Below are positions 3,240 through 60,576 of a stretch of DNA of 64,000 nt, piece by piece (within the stretch, counting starts at the first letter, position 1; every line of letters begins with the position of its first letter). The translations under genes were made by a program, and so were the position numbers. The DNA comes from Cloacibacterium normanense (GTDB lineage Bacteria > Bacteroidota > Bacteroidia > Flavobacteriales > Weeksellaceae): positions 186,001 to 250,000 of the forward strand of contig NZ_CP034157.1 in assembly GCF_003860565.1 (NCBI RefSeq), in the 5' to 3' direction. A model generated the notes under the pieces. That model did not search any database. It worked only from the letters and a program-made list of their open reading frames with translations, and was not told where the DNA came from.

Positions 3240-3252
3240 TTTTTTAAGCTTT

Positions 3253-3330
3253 CTGCAGTCAGCAATCTGCCTTCTGCTATTGTTTTTTATAATTTTTTGC
3301 TGAAAGCCAAATGCCGACAGCAGATTGCAA
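3253..3330. repeat. Inverted pair of short-word arms between coaD and ddl
   Basis: Left arm 3253-3277 (ctgcagtcagcaatctgc and a second ctgc word) and right arm 3299-3330 contain the exact inverted 9-mers GCAATCTGC (3262-3270) and GCAGATTGC (3320-3328). The 20-base spacer is T-rich. If transcribed with ddl it would fold into a long imperfect hairpin. Confidence 0.6.
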
Positions 3331-6624: not shown

Positions 6625-7575
6625 ATGAAAAAAATATTATTCACATTTTTTGCTGCTTTTTCAGGATTGAGCTATGCTCAAGAAACTATTCCTATGTATC
6701 AGCAGTATTTATTTGATAGTGAATTTCTCTTTAATCCAGCGCATATTGGTAAAACAGATGATGTAAATTTGGTTGCCAACTATCAAAAACAATTTTCAAA
6801 ATTTGATGAATCTCCCAATGTACAATCGGTAGGAATTCATGCCAATGCTTTTGATAGAGTAGGAATAGGCGCTTATTTTTTCCGTGACCAAAACGGGCCA
6901 ATTTCTGCAAACGGAATTGCAATTGGTGCTTCTTACTTTGTTCCACTCAGTGATGAAGATGGCAGAAAAGACCAATTTTCTTTCGGGACATCAGTAAATT
7001 TTTACAATCAGAACTTTGATGTTTCTAAAGTAAATGCGCAAGATCCAAATGATCCTTTGCTTTACGAAAATAACAACAGTATTTTCATTGCTTATGCTAA
7101 CTTAGGATTACAAGCTACTTATAGCAGAGCTTTTGCGGGGATTTCTGTTGCAGATATTCCATTGAGTAACAATACACCAGTGGTAAATGGTATAGAACCG
7201 TCGCCAACCAGATTTTACCTTAATGCAGGATATGACTGGGAAATTACCGAAGGATTTTCGGTAGAACCTTCTGTGATGATGAATTTGAATACCAATTCAT
7301 CTAGAATGTTTGACATCAATGTTCTGATGAAATTGTATGGTGAAAGTGATTATTTTGCTGCGGGAATCAATTACAGAACGGCAAAAAGTGCTGTGGGAAG
7401 CCAACAGTTAAGCATGTCACCTATTATTAAATTTAAACTCAATAAACTCCATTTCGGAGCTTCTTATAATTTAGGATTGTCTGATATTCAAGAATACGGC
7501 GGAAATTCGTTCATGCTCAGTTTAGGTTATGATATTCCTAATTTTATCAATCAAAGAGGATTTAGATATCGTTAA
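6625..7575 (+). CDS. PorP/SprF family type IX secretion system membrane protein
   Basis: A 316-residue outer-membrane protein with a signal peptide (MKKILFTFFAAFSGLSYAQ, cleavage near residue 18). The start of the mature part, IPMYQQYLFDSEFLFNPAHI, and the following repeated beta-strands match PorP/SprF. Members of this family are accessory outer-membrane components found with type IX secretion and gliding genes; many genomes hold several copies, often next to a cargo adhesin. No such partner is adjacent here, so which substrate it serves is not visible. It has its own promoter element. Confidence 0.92.
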   Translation: MKKILFTFFAAFSGLSYAQETIPMYQQYLFDSEFLFNPAHIGKTDDVNLVANYQKQFSKFDESPNVQSVGIHANAFDRVGIGAYFFRDQNGPISANGIAIGASYFVPLSDEDGRKDQFSFGTSVNFYNQNFDVSKVNAQDPNDPLLYENNNSIFIAYANLGLQATYSRAFAGISVADIPLSNNTPVVNGIEPSPTRFYLNAGYDWEITEGFSVEPSVMMNLNTNSSRMFDINVLMKLYGESDYFAAGINYRTAKSAVGSQQLSMSPIIKFKLNKLHFGASYNLGLSDIQEYGGNSFMLSLGYDIPNFINQRGFRYR

Positions 7576-7576
7576 A

Positions 7577-7608
7577 TTTGCTGGAAGCATGATGCTGGAA
7601 GTTTGATG
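7577..7608. repeat. Left short-word arm flanking the four-helix-bundle gene
   Basis: Contains gctggaag twice (7580-7587 and 7594-7601) with catgat between. Its reverse complement, with CTTCCAGCATCAT, resembles the right arm at 7977-8005. Confidence 0.6.
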
Positions 7609-7622
7609 TAATTTAATTGAAG

Positions 7623-7976
7623 ATGAGCTTTAAATTTGAAAAATTAACAATTTGGCAAGACTCCATGAGTTATGGAGAAAAGATATTTAAATTGTCTTTT
7701 AATTTTCCAAAAGATGAAATATTTAATCTAACTTCTCAGATTAGAAGAGCTTCTGATTCAATCGCTCTTAATATTTCAGAAGGAAGTATTTTACAAAGTA
7801 ATACTGAATTTAAAAAATTTCTAGGATATTCAATTCGTTCATTAGCAGAAGTGGTAACTTGTCTTTATAAAGCGAAGGATAGGAACTATATTGATGAGAG
7901 TGATTTTAAAGAATTATATCAAGAAGCATATAAATTAATGAATTCTATAATTGCATTTAGAAATAAACTCAATTAA
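7623..7976 (+). CDS. Four-helix-bundle protein (S23 / intervening-sequence protein family)
   Basis: A 117-residue protein with the family hallmarks: KFEKLTIWQDSMSYGEKIFK at the start, QIRRASDSIALNISEG near residue 40, a FLGYSIRSLAEVVTCL helix, and a final helix with LMNSIIAFRNKL. Relatives are encoded in 23S rRNA intervening sequences or stand alone; the fold is also that of the Avd accessory protein of diversity-generating retroelements. The function is unknown. ATG 7623 is preferred over the in-frame TTG at 7617. The gene is enclosed by inverted short-word arms at 7577-7608 and 7977-8005, which suggests a unit of gene plus arms that arrived together (inference). Confidence 0.93.
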   Translation: MSFKFEKLTIWQDSMSYGEKIFKLSFNFPKDEIFNLTSQIRRASDSIALNISEGSILQSNTEFKKFLGYSIRSLAEVVTCLYKAKDRNYIDESDFKELYQEAYKLMNSIIAFRNKLN

Positions 7977-8005
7977 CTTCCATCATCCAACACCTAACAC
8001 CCAAC
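7977..8005. repeat. Right short-word arm flanking the four-helix-bundle gene
   Basis: Starts directly after the stop codon: CTTCCATCATCCAAC, then further caac/cccaac words. A close relative, including the final cacccaac, is the right arm at 24390-24418. Confidence 0.6.
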
Positions 8006-8009
8006 AAAA

Positions 8010-9134
8010 TTGATTTACCTCCATATTCCTTTTTGCAAGCAGAAATGCAGTTATTGTAATTTTCATTTTTCTACTTCATTGAAGCAGAAAGACGAAATGA
8101 TTTCGGCAATAAAAAAAGAAATTTTTCTAAGAAAAGAGGAGCTGGAAAACAAAACACTTTCGTCGCTTTATTTTGGTGGCGGAACTCCTTCTATTCTTTC
8201 TGTAGATGAAATCAAATCTTTAATAGATGAGGTTTTAAAGTATTTTGATTTTGAGAAGAATATTGAAATCACACTAGAAGCTAATCCTGATGATTTAGAT
8301 AAAAATTTTCTGAAAGATTTAGCCAAAACCGAAATCAATCGACTTTCTATAGGAACACAAAGTTTTTTTGAAGAAGATTTAAAGCTCATGAATCGTGCTC
8401 ATAATGCTTCTGAAGCCGAAAGCTCTATCAAAAGAGCACAAGATTTTGGCTTTGAAAATCTGAGTATTGATTTAATTTATGGTTCGCCGACTTCCAATTT
8501 TGAAATCTGGAAAGAAAATCTTCAGAAAATCATAGAGCTTCAAGTTCCTCACGTTTCTTCTTACGCATTGACCATCGAGCCCAAAACAGCTTTGAATGCT
8601 TGGATTAAGAAAAATAAAATCGCAGAACCGAAAGAAACAGAGCAAAATAAAGAGTTCTATTATATGTCTGATTTTCTAAAAGACAACGGGTTTATACACT
8701 ACGAAATTTCTAATTTTGCTAAAATAGATTTTGAATCGAAGCACAATTCAGCGTATTGGAAATACAAAGAATATCTGGGAATCGGGCCTTCTGCACATTC
8801 CTATAACGGTAGAAACGAACGCAGTTGGAATGTTGCGAATAACACTCTTTACATTAAAAATTTAGCAGAAAATATTCTTCCCAAGGAAACCGAAAAACTT
8901 TCTGAAAAAGACCAGTACAATGAAATGCTCATGATTGGTCTCAGAACGATTTGGGGTGTAGATTTAGAAAAACTCCACGAAAAATTTTCTGGTGAAATTT
9001 TAGAAATTTTTAAAAACAGCATTCAGTCAAAATTAAAAGAAGGAATTCTTGTGATAGAAGAAAATCACTTAAAAATTCTAGAAAAACATTGGTTTTTAGC
9101 CGATGGAATCGCTTCAGATCTCTTTATTCTTTAA
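8010..9134 (+). CDS. hemW: Radical SAM haem chaperone HemW (coproporphyrinogen oxidase-like)
   Basis: A 374-residue radical SAM protein. Cys9, Cys13 and Cys16 (PFCKQKCSYC) bind the 4Fe-4S cluster; GGGTPSIL and the SIGTQSF segment follow, and the C-terminal HemN domain is present. Proteins with this length and CNFHF after the cluster motif are HemW, which carries haem to membrane targets, rather than the true oxidase HemN. The start is TTG: the in-frame upstream stop is only four codons away and no ATG precedes the cluster motif. The right word arm of the four-helix unit abuts the start. Five tandem aaaatct copies follow the gene. Confidence 0.93.
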   Translation: MIYLHIPFCKQKCSYCNFHFSTSLKQKDEMISAIKKEIFLRKEELENKTLSSLYFGGGTPSILSVDEIKSLIDEVLKYFDFEKNIEITLEANPDDLDKNFLKDLAKTEINRLSIGTQSFFEEDLKLMNRAHNASEAESSIKRAQDFGFENLSIDLIYGSPTSNFEIWKENLQKIIELQVPHVSSYALTIEPKTALNAWIKKNKIAEPKETEQNKEFYYMSDFLKDNGFIHYEISNFAKIDFESKHNSAYWKYKEYLGIGPSAHSYNGRNERSWNVANNTLYIKNLAENILPKETEKLSEKDQYNEMLMIGLRTIWGVDLEKLHEKFSGEILEIFKNSIQSKLKEGILVIEENHLKILEKHWFLADGIASDLFIL

Positions 9135-12805: not shown

Positions 12806-12905
12806 CATTAAGATTTTCATTTAGATATTAAGTTTCATTAAGTTTTTTGAAAATTTGAAGAATTTTCATCTTAAATTTCTTAATTCCTTACTTGAAACTT
12901 AATGG
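12806..12905. repeat. Inverted pair of short-word arms (attaag / cttaat)
   Basis: Left arm 12806-12842 repeats cattaag and atattaag; right arm 12870-12905 repeats cttaaat, cttaatt and cttaatg, the inverse of the left words. The 27-base spacer is AT-rich. It lies between the Smr and phosphoesterase genes. Confidence 0.55.
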
Positions 12906-20354: not shown

Positions 20355-20375
20355 AATTTATCATACAATATAATG

Positions 20376-20404
20376 AGCCACTCTATTTAGAGTGGCTTTT
20401 TTTG
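20376..20404 (+). terminator. Terminator after nusG
   Basis: Arms AGCCACTCTA and TAGAGTGGCT around TTT-rich loop bases, followed by seven or more T. Confidence 0.9.
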
Positions 20405-20501
20405 TGGATAAGTCTTTCTGAAAACGCCCTCTTTTGTCGTACAATCTTTCTAATTTTACGTTCTCATTTTTAGCGTTTAATTCTTCTAAATTTCTTCTAT
20501 T

Positions 20502-21773: not shown

Positions 21774-21811
21774 AAATATTAAATATCTTTTTAAATTTCA
21801 GCGATTTACAC

Positions 21812-21841
21812 TTGTTAGTTAAGAAATTTTTCTTAATTTTG
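21812..21841 (+). promoter_or_regulatory. Promoter of the rplK operon
   Basis: TTG at 21812-21814 and TAATTTTG at 21834-21841 with 19 bases between. The leader to rplK is about 90 bases. Confidence 0.75.
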
Positions 21842-21853
21842 CACCCACAAAAA

Positions 21854-21885
21854 GTAAGTTAGGAAGGTGAGATAATCTAACTTGC
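21854..21885 (+). promoter_or_regulatory. Leader hairpin upstream of rplK (possible L1 control site)
   Basis: Nine-base-pair stem GTAAGTTAG/CTAACTTGC (one G-T pair) enclosing gaaggtgagataat. In other bacteria L1 represses the L11-L1 mRNA through a leader structure resembling its 23S site; this is a candidate by position only. Confidence 0.45.
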
Positions 21886-21938
21886 TGATTTATAAATGCT
21901 TCCACATTCATAAATTAAAAATTTTTAAAAATTAAAAA

Positions 21939-24355: not shown

Positions 24356-24418
24356 GTAGGAAGCTAGATGCGGTAGGCTAGATGTAAAACATCTGACATC
24401 CAACATCAAACACCCAAC
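24356..24418. repeat. Inverted pair of short-word arms without a gene between
   Basis: Left arm (gtaggaagctagatg, then ggtaggctagatg) and right arm (catctgacatccaacatc, then aaacacccaac) are separated by 5 bases. The words resemble the arms that enclose the four-helix-bundle gene at 7.6 kb, including the final cacccaac. Confidence 0.65.
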
Positions 24419-47544: not shown

Positions 47545-48402
47545 ATGATTTTATCAATGACAGGCTTCGGAAGAGCCGAAGGTATTTTTGAAGGAAAAAA
47601 AATTAGCATCGAACTCAAATCGCTTAACAGTAAATCATTTGACTTGAATCTAAGAATTCCGCTTCGCTATAAAGAGAAAGAATTCGAAGTAAGAAAATTG
47701 TTAAATGACACCATTCTCAGAGGAAAAGTAGACTGCTATATCAATTGCGAAACCATCGATGACTGCAATGATGTAAAAATCAATCAAGATATTGTAAAAG
47801 CATATATGAATCAGCTTCGTGAGATTTCTCCCAATGCAGAAGAGTTTGAATATCTGAAAATGGCCATCAGAATGCCTGAAGCAATTAACGGAAAGCCTGC
47901 AGAATTAAATGAAGAAGAGTGGAAATCTTTGGAAAATTTGGTTAAAGAAGCTTTAGCAAAATTTGTAGATTTCAGAAAGACAGAAGGCGCAATTTTACAC
48001 GAAGAACTGGCAAAAAATCTTAAAAATATTGAAGAAAATCTTCTCAAAGTCATTCCTTACGAAGACGACAGAATGGTAGCGGTAAAAGAACGTTATCAGA
48101 ATACTTTGAAAGAATTTGAGAATGTAGACGAAACCAGATTCTATCAAGAACTGGCTTATTATACCGAAAAATTAGACATTTCCGAAGAAAAAGTACGTTT
48201 AACACAGCACTTGAAATATTACTTAGAAGTGATGCAAAACGAAACTTTCAACGGGAAAAAATTAGGATTTATCTCTCAAGAAATCGGCAGAGAGATCAAT
48301 ACATTAGGTTCTAAAGCCAATCACCACGAAATCCAAAAACTGGTAGTGATGATGAAAGACGATTTAGAAAAAATTAAAGAACAAACGTTAAACGTATTGT
48401 AA
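47545..48402 (+). CDS. yicC: YicC family endoribonuclease
   Basis: A 285-residue protein starting ILSMTGFGRAEGIFEGKKIS, the family signature, and ending with IGREINTLGSKANHHEIQKL. YicC proteins are endoribonucleases/adaptors that affect small RNAs in E. coli and B. subtilis. The frame is open to a TTG at 47524, but that lies in the promoter; ATG 47545 gives the standard N-terminus. As in many bacteria it is followed by gmk, here with an inverted word-repeat pair in the gap. Confidence 0.93.
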   Translation: MILSMTGFGRAEGIFEGKKISIELKSLNSKSFDLNLRIPLRYKEKEFEVRKLLNDTILRGKVDCYINCETIDDCNDVKINQDIVKAYMNQLREISPNAEEFEYLKMAIRMPEAINGKPAELNEEEWKSLENLVKEALAKFVDFRKTEGAILHEELAKNLKNIEENLLKVIPYEDDRMVAVKERYQNTLKEFENVDETRFYQELAYYTEKLDISEEKVRLTQHLKYYLEVMQNETFNGKKLGFISQEIGREINTLGSKANHHEIQKLVVMMKDDLEKIKEQTLNVL

Positions 48403-48482
48403 TGATGAGTTATAAGTCTTGAGTTATAAGTTGTTTTTGTAGTCTTTAAATAACTCATCATTCATAATTCATCACTCATAAC
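48402..48482. repeat. Inverted pair of short-word arms between yicC and gmk
   Basis: Left arm 48402-48430 (atgatgagttataag, cttgagttataag) and right arm 48451-48482 (aactcatcattcat, aattcatcactcataac) are inverse words: ATGATGAGTT against AACTCATCAT. The left arm starts at the yicC stop codon. Spacer about 20 bases. Confidence 0.65.
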
Positions 48483-48490
48483 TATTAAAA

Positions 48491-52892: not shown

Positions 52893-52901
52893 ATTTTATT
52901 C

Positions 52902-53029
52902 AACCGCAAAAGAAACAAAAGATTTGTAATATTTTTAAGTTGTTCAAAAGAAAAAAAAGGATTTTACTTTTCTTTTTTGTGCTTTTGTAAATCTTCTTTC
53001 CAATCATTTCTTTTGTGTCTTTTGCGGTT
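52902..53029. repeat. Long imperfect inverted repeat between thrA and thrB
   Basis: Outer arms 52902-52922 and 53009-53029 start AACCGCAAAAGA and end its inverse TCTTTTGCGGTT; about 20 of 21 positions pair. Inner A/G-rich and T/C-rich stretches extend the pairing. A related word (agcgcgatttgcg) follows at 53060. Confidence 0.75.
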
Positions 53030-53085
53030 AAAATAAATTATTTTCAAAAAATAAAAAATCTTAGCGCGATTTGCGTTTAAAAGAA

Positions 53086-60471: not shown

Positions 60472-60483
60472 TTAGAATAGTTT

Positions 60484-60526
60484 CCCTCTTTTAGAGGGGT
60501 GGCTTCGCAAAGCGAAGTCGGGGTGT
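60484..60526. repeat. REP-like double hairpin
   Basis: CCCTCT-TTT-AGAGGG (60484-60498) followed by GGCTTCGC-AAA-GCGAAGTC (60501-60519) and ggggtgtc. Paired hairpins with GC-rich heads in an AT-rich gap are a typical REP layout. Confidence 0.75.
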
Positions 60527-60576
60527 CAAAATAAATATTATCACATCAACAAATTATCACATCAACACATCAATTT

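Follow-up and report, generated by a model that had tools for sequence, protein, structure and literature searches.

An S23 gene between inverted heptad arrays in Cloacibacterium normanense points to a widespread, probably selfish or mobile, intergenic element

Introduction

Insertions into 23S rRNA (IVSs) that carry an S23 ORF together with heptameric repeats have already been described (PMC4990558). In Coxiella, tandem GACAGAT heptamers precede the S23 ORF, and the IVS is excised by RNase III (PMC4990558). Heptameric repeats have also been reported, separately and without a mechanism, from the intergenic DNA of several phyla: GGGAATC heptamers, often inverted, occur in Xanthomonas and GGGGATT in Nostoc (PMC4692102), TAACTGA heptamers in Beggiatoaceae, Cyanobacteria, and Bacteroidetes (PMC4679880), and heptads make up the cyanobacterial STRRs and are found in P6b of the trnL intron (PMC3488679). 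REPINs are inverted hairpins scattered through intergenic DNA (PMC3116915). For the S23/IVP proteins, crystal structures exist but a function is lacking.

In the literature searched, no paper was found that links S23 to heptad arrays outside rRNA; the subscription literature was thinly covered, and an earlier description is possible. The first-pass annotation of the DNA analyzed here had stated that no established description of such an element exists, which holds, within that literature, for the element as a whole, but not for its parts (PMC4990558, PMC4692102, PMC4679880).

Results

The window, that is, the whole 64-kb stretch of the C. normanense genome that was analyzed, contains a small four-helix-bundle gene between a PorP/SprF family gene and hemW (Table 1). 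Its product matches PF05635 (9e-32, 109.9 bits in Pfam) and TIGR02436, and its AF2 model (pLDDT 96.7) matches the crystal structures of Xcc0516 (2gsc, TM 0.95) and BT_0352 (2rld); the match to Avd (4dwl, TM 0.80), also as contained in DGR RNPs (8ub7), is a more distant one. Both arms of the gene are arrays of 7-nt words, the right one being the inverse of the left. The earlier claim of a gene between mutually inverse arms is thus borne out, although the two parts of the evidence differ in weight: the 7-nt periodicity was reached by 0/1000 dinucleotide shuffles, whereas the inverted match taken alone is modest (51/1000). Inverted repeats enclosing the S23 ORF are therefore weak at the window locus alone but, as described below, strong for the class. 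No rRNA was found in the window, where an Rfam search gave tRNAs only; the S23 unit occupies the porP-hemW slot, so it lies outside any 23S rRNA gene.

Table 1. Position of the S23 unit, its neighbors, and word pairs in the window.
Feature	Position	Strand	Basis or remark
Upstream neighbor, PorP/SprF family gene	6625-7575	+	same strand as S23
Left arm, GCTGGAA-GCATGAT-GCTGGAA-GTTTGAT-G	7580-7608	+	lag-7 periodicity, 0/1000 shuffles
S23/IVP four-helix-bundle gene, 117 aa	7623-7976	+	PF05635, TIGR02436, AF2 model, structure matches
Right arm, AACTTCC-ATCATCC-AACACCT-AACACCC-AAC	7975-8005	+	overlaps the stop codon, stops just short of the next gene
Downstream neighbor, hemW	8010-9134	+	same strand as S23
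Gene-less inverted pair of the window word class, GCTAGATG / CATCCAACATCAAACACCCAAC	24356-24418	+	rplL-rpoB slot; lag-7 3/1000
Gene-less inverted pair, CAGTCAGCAATCTGCC class	3249-3329	.	0/1000; class of S23 gene L002 (genome position 504961)
Gene-less inverted pair, GATGAGTTATAAG / ATAACTCATCATTC	48404-48484	+	slot before gmk; 0/1000
Claimed word pair, unsupported as a heptad pair	12806-12905	.	81/1000 and 99/1000 shuffles

The C. normanense genome (2.76 Mb) carries eight S23 genes. As judged by eye, every one of them is flanked by inverted 7- or 8-nt word arrays, and the words vary between loci. The likeness of the two arms was expressed as an arm score (left flank scored against the reverse complement of the right flank), with arms swapped between loci, shuffles, and distal DNA 700-900 nt away as controls. 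For 69 independent Bacteroidota sites, the mean score was 38.7 versus 21.9 (swapped), 22.6 (shuffled), and 21.7 (distal; p = 2e-26). Within the genus, the threshold was reached by 65% of 23 S23 sites versus 1.4% of 148 size-matched ordinary genes in the same genomes. Far outside the genus the picture is the same: 79 loci from many phyla, retrieved with the sequence of Xcc0516, a protein of solved structure, gave a mean of 39.6 versus 20.8 for swapped arms (p = 2e-25). The arms belong to the S23 gene, a link that had previously been offered as an inference only and that the Bacteroidota sites, the cross-phylum loci, and the gene controls strongly support; the class of elements is wider than the first-pass annotation supposed.

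The best arm period was 7 in 73/94 loci and 8 in 16/94. The short-word arrays recognized earlier are real, and the word is to be corrected to a degenerate one of 7 or 8 nt. On the S23 strand, words are C-poor and most have A/G-G at a fixed phase, the dinucleotide AG being more frequent than in column-permuted controls (z = 4.6). In the cyanobacterial S23 genes L135 and L139, word arrays on both sides are direct, not inverted. At locus L208 (G115:C14:219000-229000), from elsewhere in the phylum, four S23 genes stand within 6 kb in successive slots of apparently one operon, and their arm words differ from gene to gene.

Each S23 lineage has its own word. When S23 proteins encoded at different sites are ≥70% identical, 90% of the pairs have word content in common; below 50% identity, 2% or fewer do. 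The word-protein correlation was not reached by any Mantel permutation (0/2000), a statistic that leans on few classes, above all AAGAGCC, and is less independent than apparent because one class supplies many pairs. Several genera have the AAGAGCC class together with the S23 type that belongs to it, and GTTGTCGG words are met again in different families. The changing word content claimed for these loci stands insofar as words differ between loci; it is not free, but tied to the S23 lineage.

As GGGAATC heptamers are known from Xanthomonas (∼70 as inverted pairs in one genome; PMC4692102), GGGAATC arms were predicted around the S23 gene of this genus. The gene, located between accB and accC, indeed lies inside CGGGAATCGGGAGTGGAGAATCGGGAATCGG and its inverse. 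The doubled GGGAATC word is present in 188, 86, 140, and 19 copies in four xanthomonad-type genomes and in 0 copies in eight other S23-bearing genomes. Among 119 Xanthomonas-family genomes, GGGAATC is abundant in 30/54 with and 8/65 without an S23 gene (odds ratio 8.9, p = 5e-7, a statistic that ignores kinship). In eight genomes of this family the word is present and an S23 gene was not detected; in the word-free genomes, those S23 genes that show arms have other words. GTGAATC, taken as a second cross-genome word, has few copies and was uninformative.

The same words are found elsewhere without a gene. In the window, the gene-less arms of the window's word class and the pairs that had been placed at 3253-3330 and 48402-48482 hold, the latter two with adjusted limits (Table 1). 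The pair claimed at 12806-12905 was rejected as an element, since shuffles reached period 7 in 99/1000 and inversion in 81/1000 cases. The window word class, CATCNAACAYCNAACA, has 27 matches at about nine sites of the genome, more than in any other genome among 50 relatives, and the reversed pattern has no match there. These sites include the rplL-rpoB slot; most of the others are one-sided arrays, with lengths at one slot of 86, 51, and 16 nt between congeners. A fixed architecture of left words, spacer, and right words, as first proposed for all gene-less copies, does therefore not apply. For the CAATCAGC class, that of L002, the 464 kb examined contain four inverted pairs without a gene besides a single S23 gene. 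Gene-less inverted copies with the sequence of the cognate gene's arms are seen for GGGAATC (inverted pairs in PMC4692102) and the L002 class, whereas the window class is mostly one-sided.

The 6-mer word scan used for gene-less copies works for GC-containing words only and fails on AT-rich classes. A plain hairpin score was dropped as a genome-wide detector because the background is too high in AT-rich DNA (at low thresholds, shuffled controls gave about half of the real counts), and intergenic z-scores were set aside as they mostly pick up terminators. Other intergenic structures came to light alongside. At 52901-53035 of the window lies a long imperfect hairpin, CAACCGCAAAAGAAACAAAAG ... 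CTTTTGTGTCTTTTGCGGTT, with an inversion reached by 0/1000 shuffles but no 7-nt period, and congener G003 has a different sequence in this slot. An array, TTATCACATCAACAAATTATCACATCAACACATCAA, occupies 60472-60576, a slot that is replaced in G001 and G006. A gene-less hairpin with telomere-like words, TTTAGGAAATAG / CTAAATCCTAAATCCTAAACCC, is found at L114:15974-16059. One genome contains a non-heptad interspersed inverted repeat, GTCATTCTGAAT...GAAGAATCT / AGATTCTTC...CAGAATGAC (L111:9574-9793, L111:10901-11029, and L114:19348-19507).

Turnover of the units was followed in five congeners, with flank identities of 84-98% that fall lower at a few sites. In the four nearer congeners, ordinary intergenic regions are mostly 0.93-1.00 identical; a word slot is either preserved or replaced in full (∼0.5 identity). 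The porP-hemW slot holds S23 in the window's genome only, and a gene-less hairpin with different words in the other congeners. In congener G002, the window's S23 unit (84% protein and 81% DNA identity, with the same words) occupies a different slot near hemW (L165), which in the window's genome holds a different small ORF and no S23, and in the others nothing. Near relatives show the same slots with different words and with the window's gene absent; the same slot holds other units or none. The near-hemW slot is a hotspot for small inserts. Congener insertions of ∼1.4-2.7 kb, which the window lacks, occur at its intergenic positions 1949-2102, 20355-20501, and 21774-21938.

At the rplL-rpoB slot, the left flank is 95.5% identical to that of G003 versus 93.75% to that of G001, while rpoB itself is nearer to G001. 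As the flank is nearer to G003 than to nearer relatives, homologous exchange from a related species appears to explain some of the replacements. The occupied/empty pairs that were inspected show no target-site duplication, which is a weak test because intergenic content is usually replaced; in the cleanest pair (L030/L173 vs L122), a 13-nt stretch is replaced.

The S23 gene itself is under strong purifying selection (median dN/dS ∼0.11 over 18 sites). Units are sense-oriented between operon genes: S23 is on the strand of its neighbors in 58/61 and 47/53 co-directional slots, typically at 45-60 nt from each neighbor.

Discussion

The S23/IVP gene with its inverted arrays of 7- or 8-nt words is probably a widespread small intergenic element, selfish or mobile and IVS-like, in which S23 acts on its own word. 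Several observations speak against a mobile reading: the replaced 13-nt stretch, the exchange-like slot changes, the one-sided arrays, and the words in genomes without S23. S23, which has the fold of the pentameric ring protein Xcc0516, would recognize the word of its own lineage, most probably at the DNA level. The protein may thereby help copies of the word arrays, whether or not they contain the gene, to reach further intergenic sites, and maintain the likeness of the two arms. Since neither a nuclease nor a polymerase domain is seen in S23, these steps would depend on host enzymes of replication, repair, or recombination, and sense placement in a host operon would provide for S23 expression without a promoter of its own. 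For the DNA step, strand annealing or template switching at the word arrays is a first guess, which we regard as rather doubtful and as the least supported part of the proposal.

A function at the RNA level is unlikely, even though it accounts for part of the data. S23 would then bind hairpin RNA of the operon transcript, with the arms as RNase III-type processing or regulatory sites that serve the host and do not move. The sense orientation in operons, the strong purifying selection on S23, and the excision of the Coxiella IVS by RNase III (PMC4990558) are in line with such a role. Mismatches between the arms, however, show no bias to G-U-compatible changes (184 v 214), which favors matching at the DNA level over a selected RNA stem, and selection for an RNA stem was set aside on this ground. 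Neither would one expect a slot to have its unit exchanged or lost from one congener to another, the same S23 unit to sit in different slots, or arrays to be one-sided.

Still less probable is that S23 genes merely landed in slippage-prone heptad repeats that are spread and exchanged by homologous recombination. Array lengths that vary at one slot between congeners, the recombined appearance of the rpoB slot, and the eight genomes with words but without S23 fit this notion; the lack of arms around size-matched ordinary genes, words that track the S23 lineage across genera, the outcome of the GGGAATC prediction, and the association of S23 and word in 119 genomes do not.

The tie between S23 lineage and word provides a concrete, testable ligand for the protein and a candidate cause for the repeats. 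The recurrence across phyla, including insertions in 23S rRNA, suggests a little-recognized class of self-spreading DNA element. We tentatively extend this to the possibility, which we rate somewhat lower than the element as such, that S23/IVP genes are the hallmark of a pan-bacterial class of DNA element, mobile or self-amplifying, which has no nuclease or polymerase and works through a protein that recognizes a 7-nt word specific to its lineage. From this class would derive the 23S rRNA IVSs, the xanthomonad GGGAATC, the cyanobacterial STRR heptamers, and other "orphan" intergenic heptad arrays alike. On cyanobacterial plasmids, S23 genes stand between cas10 and cmr3 (L137) and between cas6 and cas4 (L139). 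Where S23 genes are found in cas loci (PMC3936711), they may have come in as insertions of this kind and have no role in CRISPR, a possible reason for their presence between cas genes and other operon genes.

Among known systems, Avd of diversity-generating retroelements has the same four-helix fold (TM 0.80). A retroelement in which S23 assists a reverse transcriptase in the manner of Avd, and in which the hairpin RNA is copied back into DNA, would agree with the match of the model to Avd, alone and in DGR RNPs, but is very improbable: no RVT_1 reverse transcriptase was found in the window's genome (G000), for which reason this route was set aside, and none in 5/6 congeners, although all have S23 genes. 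REPIN/RAYT systems resemble the S23 units in their inverted intergenic hairpins and in a cognate gene with co-evolving specificity; their many gene-less copies have a counterpart in GGGAATC and the L002 class, less so in the mostly one-sided window class. It is just as hard to believe that an HUH transposase (RAYT/IS200) moves the hairpins in trans, with S23 as bystander or accessory; the scattered intergenic inverted word hairpins do resemble REPINs (PMC3116915), but the gene inside the arms belongs to PF05635 only, not to the HUH transposases, and it is S23 of which the lineage predicts the word. In addition, several S23 lineages are present per genome, and the repeated sequence is a tandem word of 7 nt, not a single REP palindrome.

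Intergenic heptamer arrays share with the window locus the tandem 7-nt words, the intergenic position, and the often inverted or hairpin-forming arrangement. The respective papers name neither gene nor mechanism, whereas here S23 is tied to a word (GGGAATC).

The 23S rRNA IVSs of Leptospira and Coxiella also contain an S23/PF05635 ORF enclosed by inverted repeats. They differ in that the window unit is intergenic in a protein operon and has its words in common with gene-less copies, and in that the IVS literature covers rRNA insertions only, the Coxiella ORF being thought to decay. A classic 23S rRNA IVS can nevertheless have the same anatomy as the intergenic units: an LSU rRNA gene (Rfam, 1516 bits) on a plasmid of Azospirillum contains the S23 gene L140, which has arms of the heptads ACAGAGG-ACGGATG-ACAGAGG-ACGGAGG-ACAGA. 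Because of these arms and of the GACAGAT heptamers of Coxiella, it is very probable that intergenic S23 units and rRNA IVSs are elements of a single kind, and the 23S rRNA gene would be one of the places where an element that generally dwells in operons has landed.
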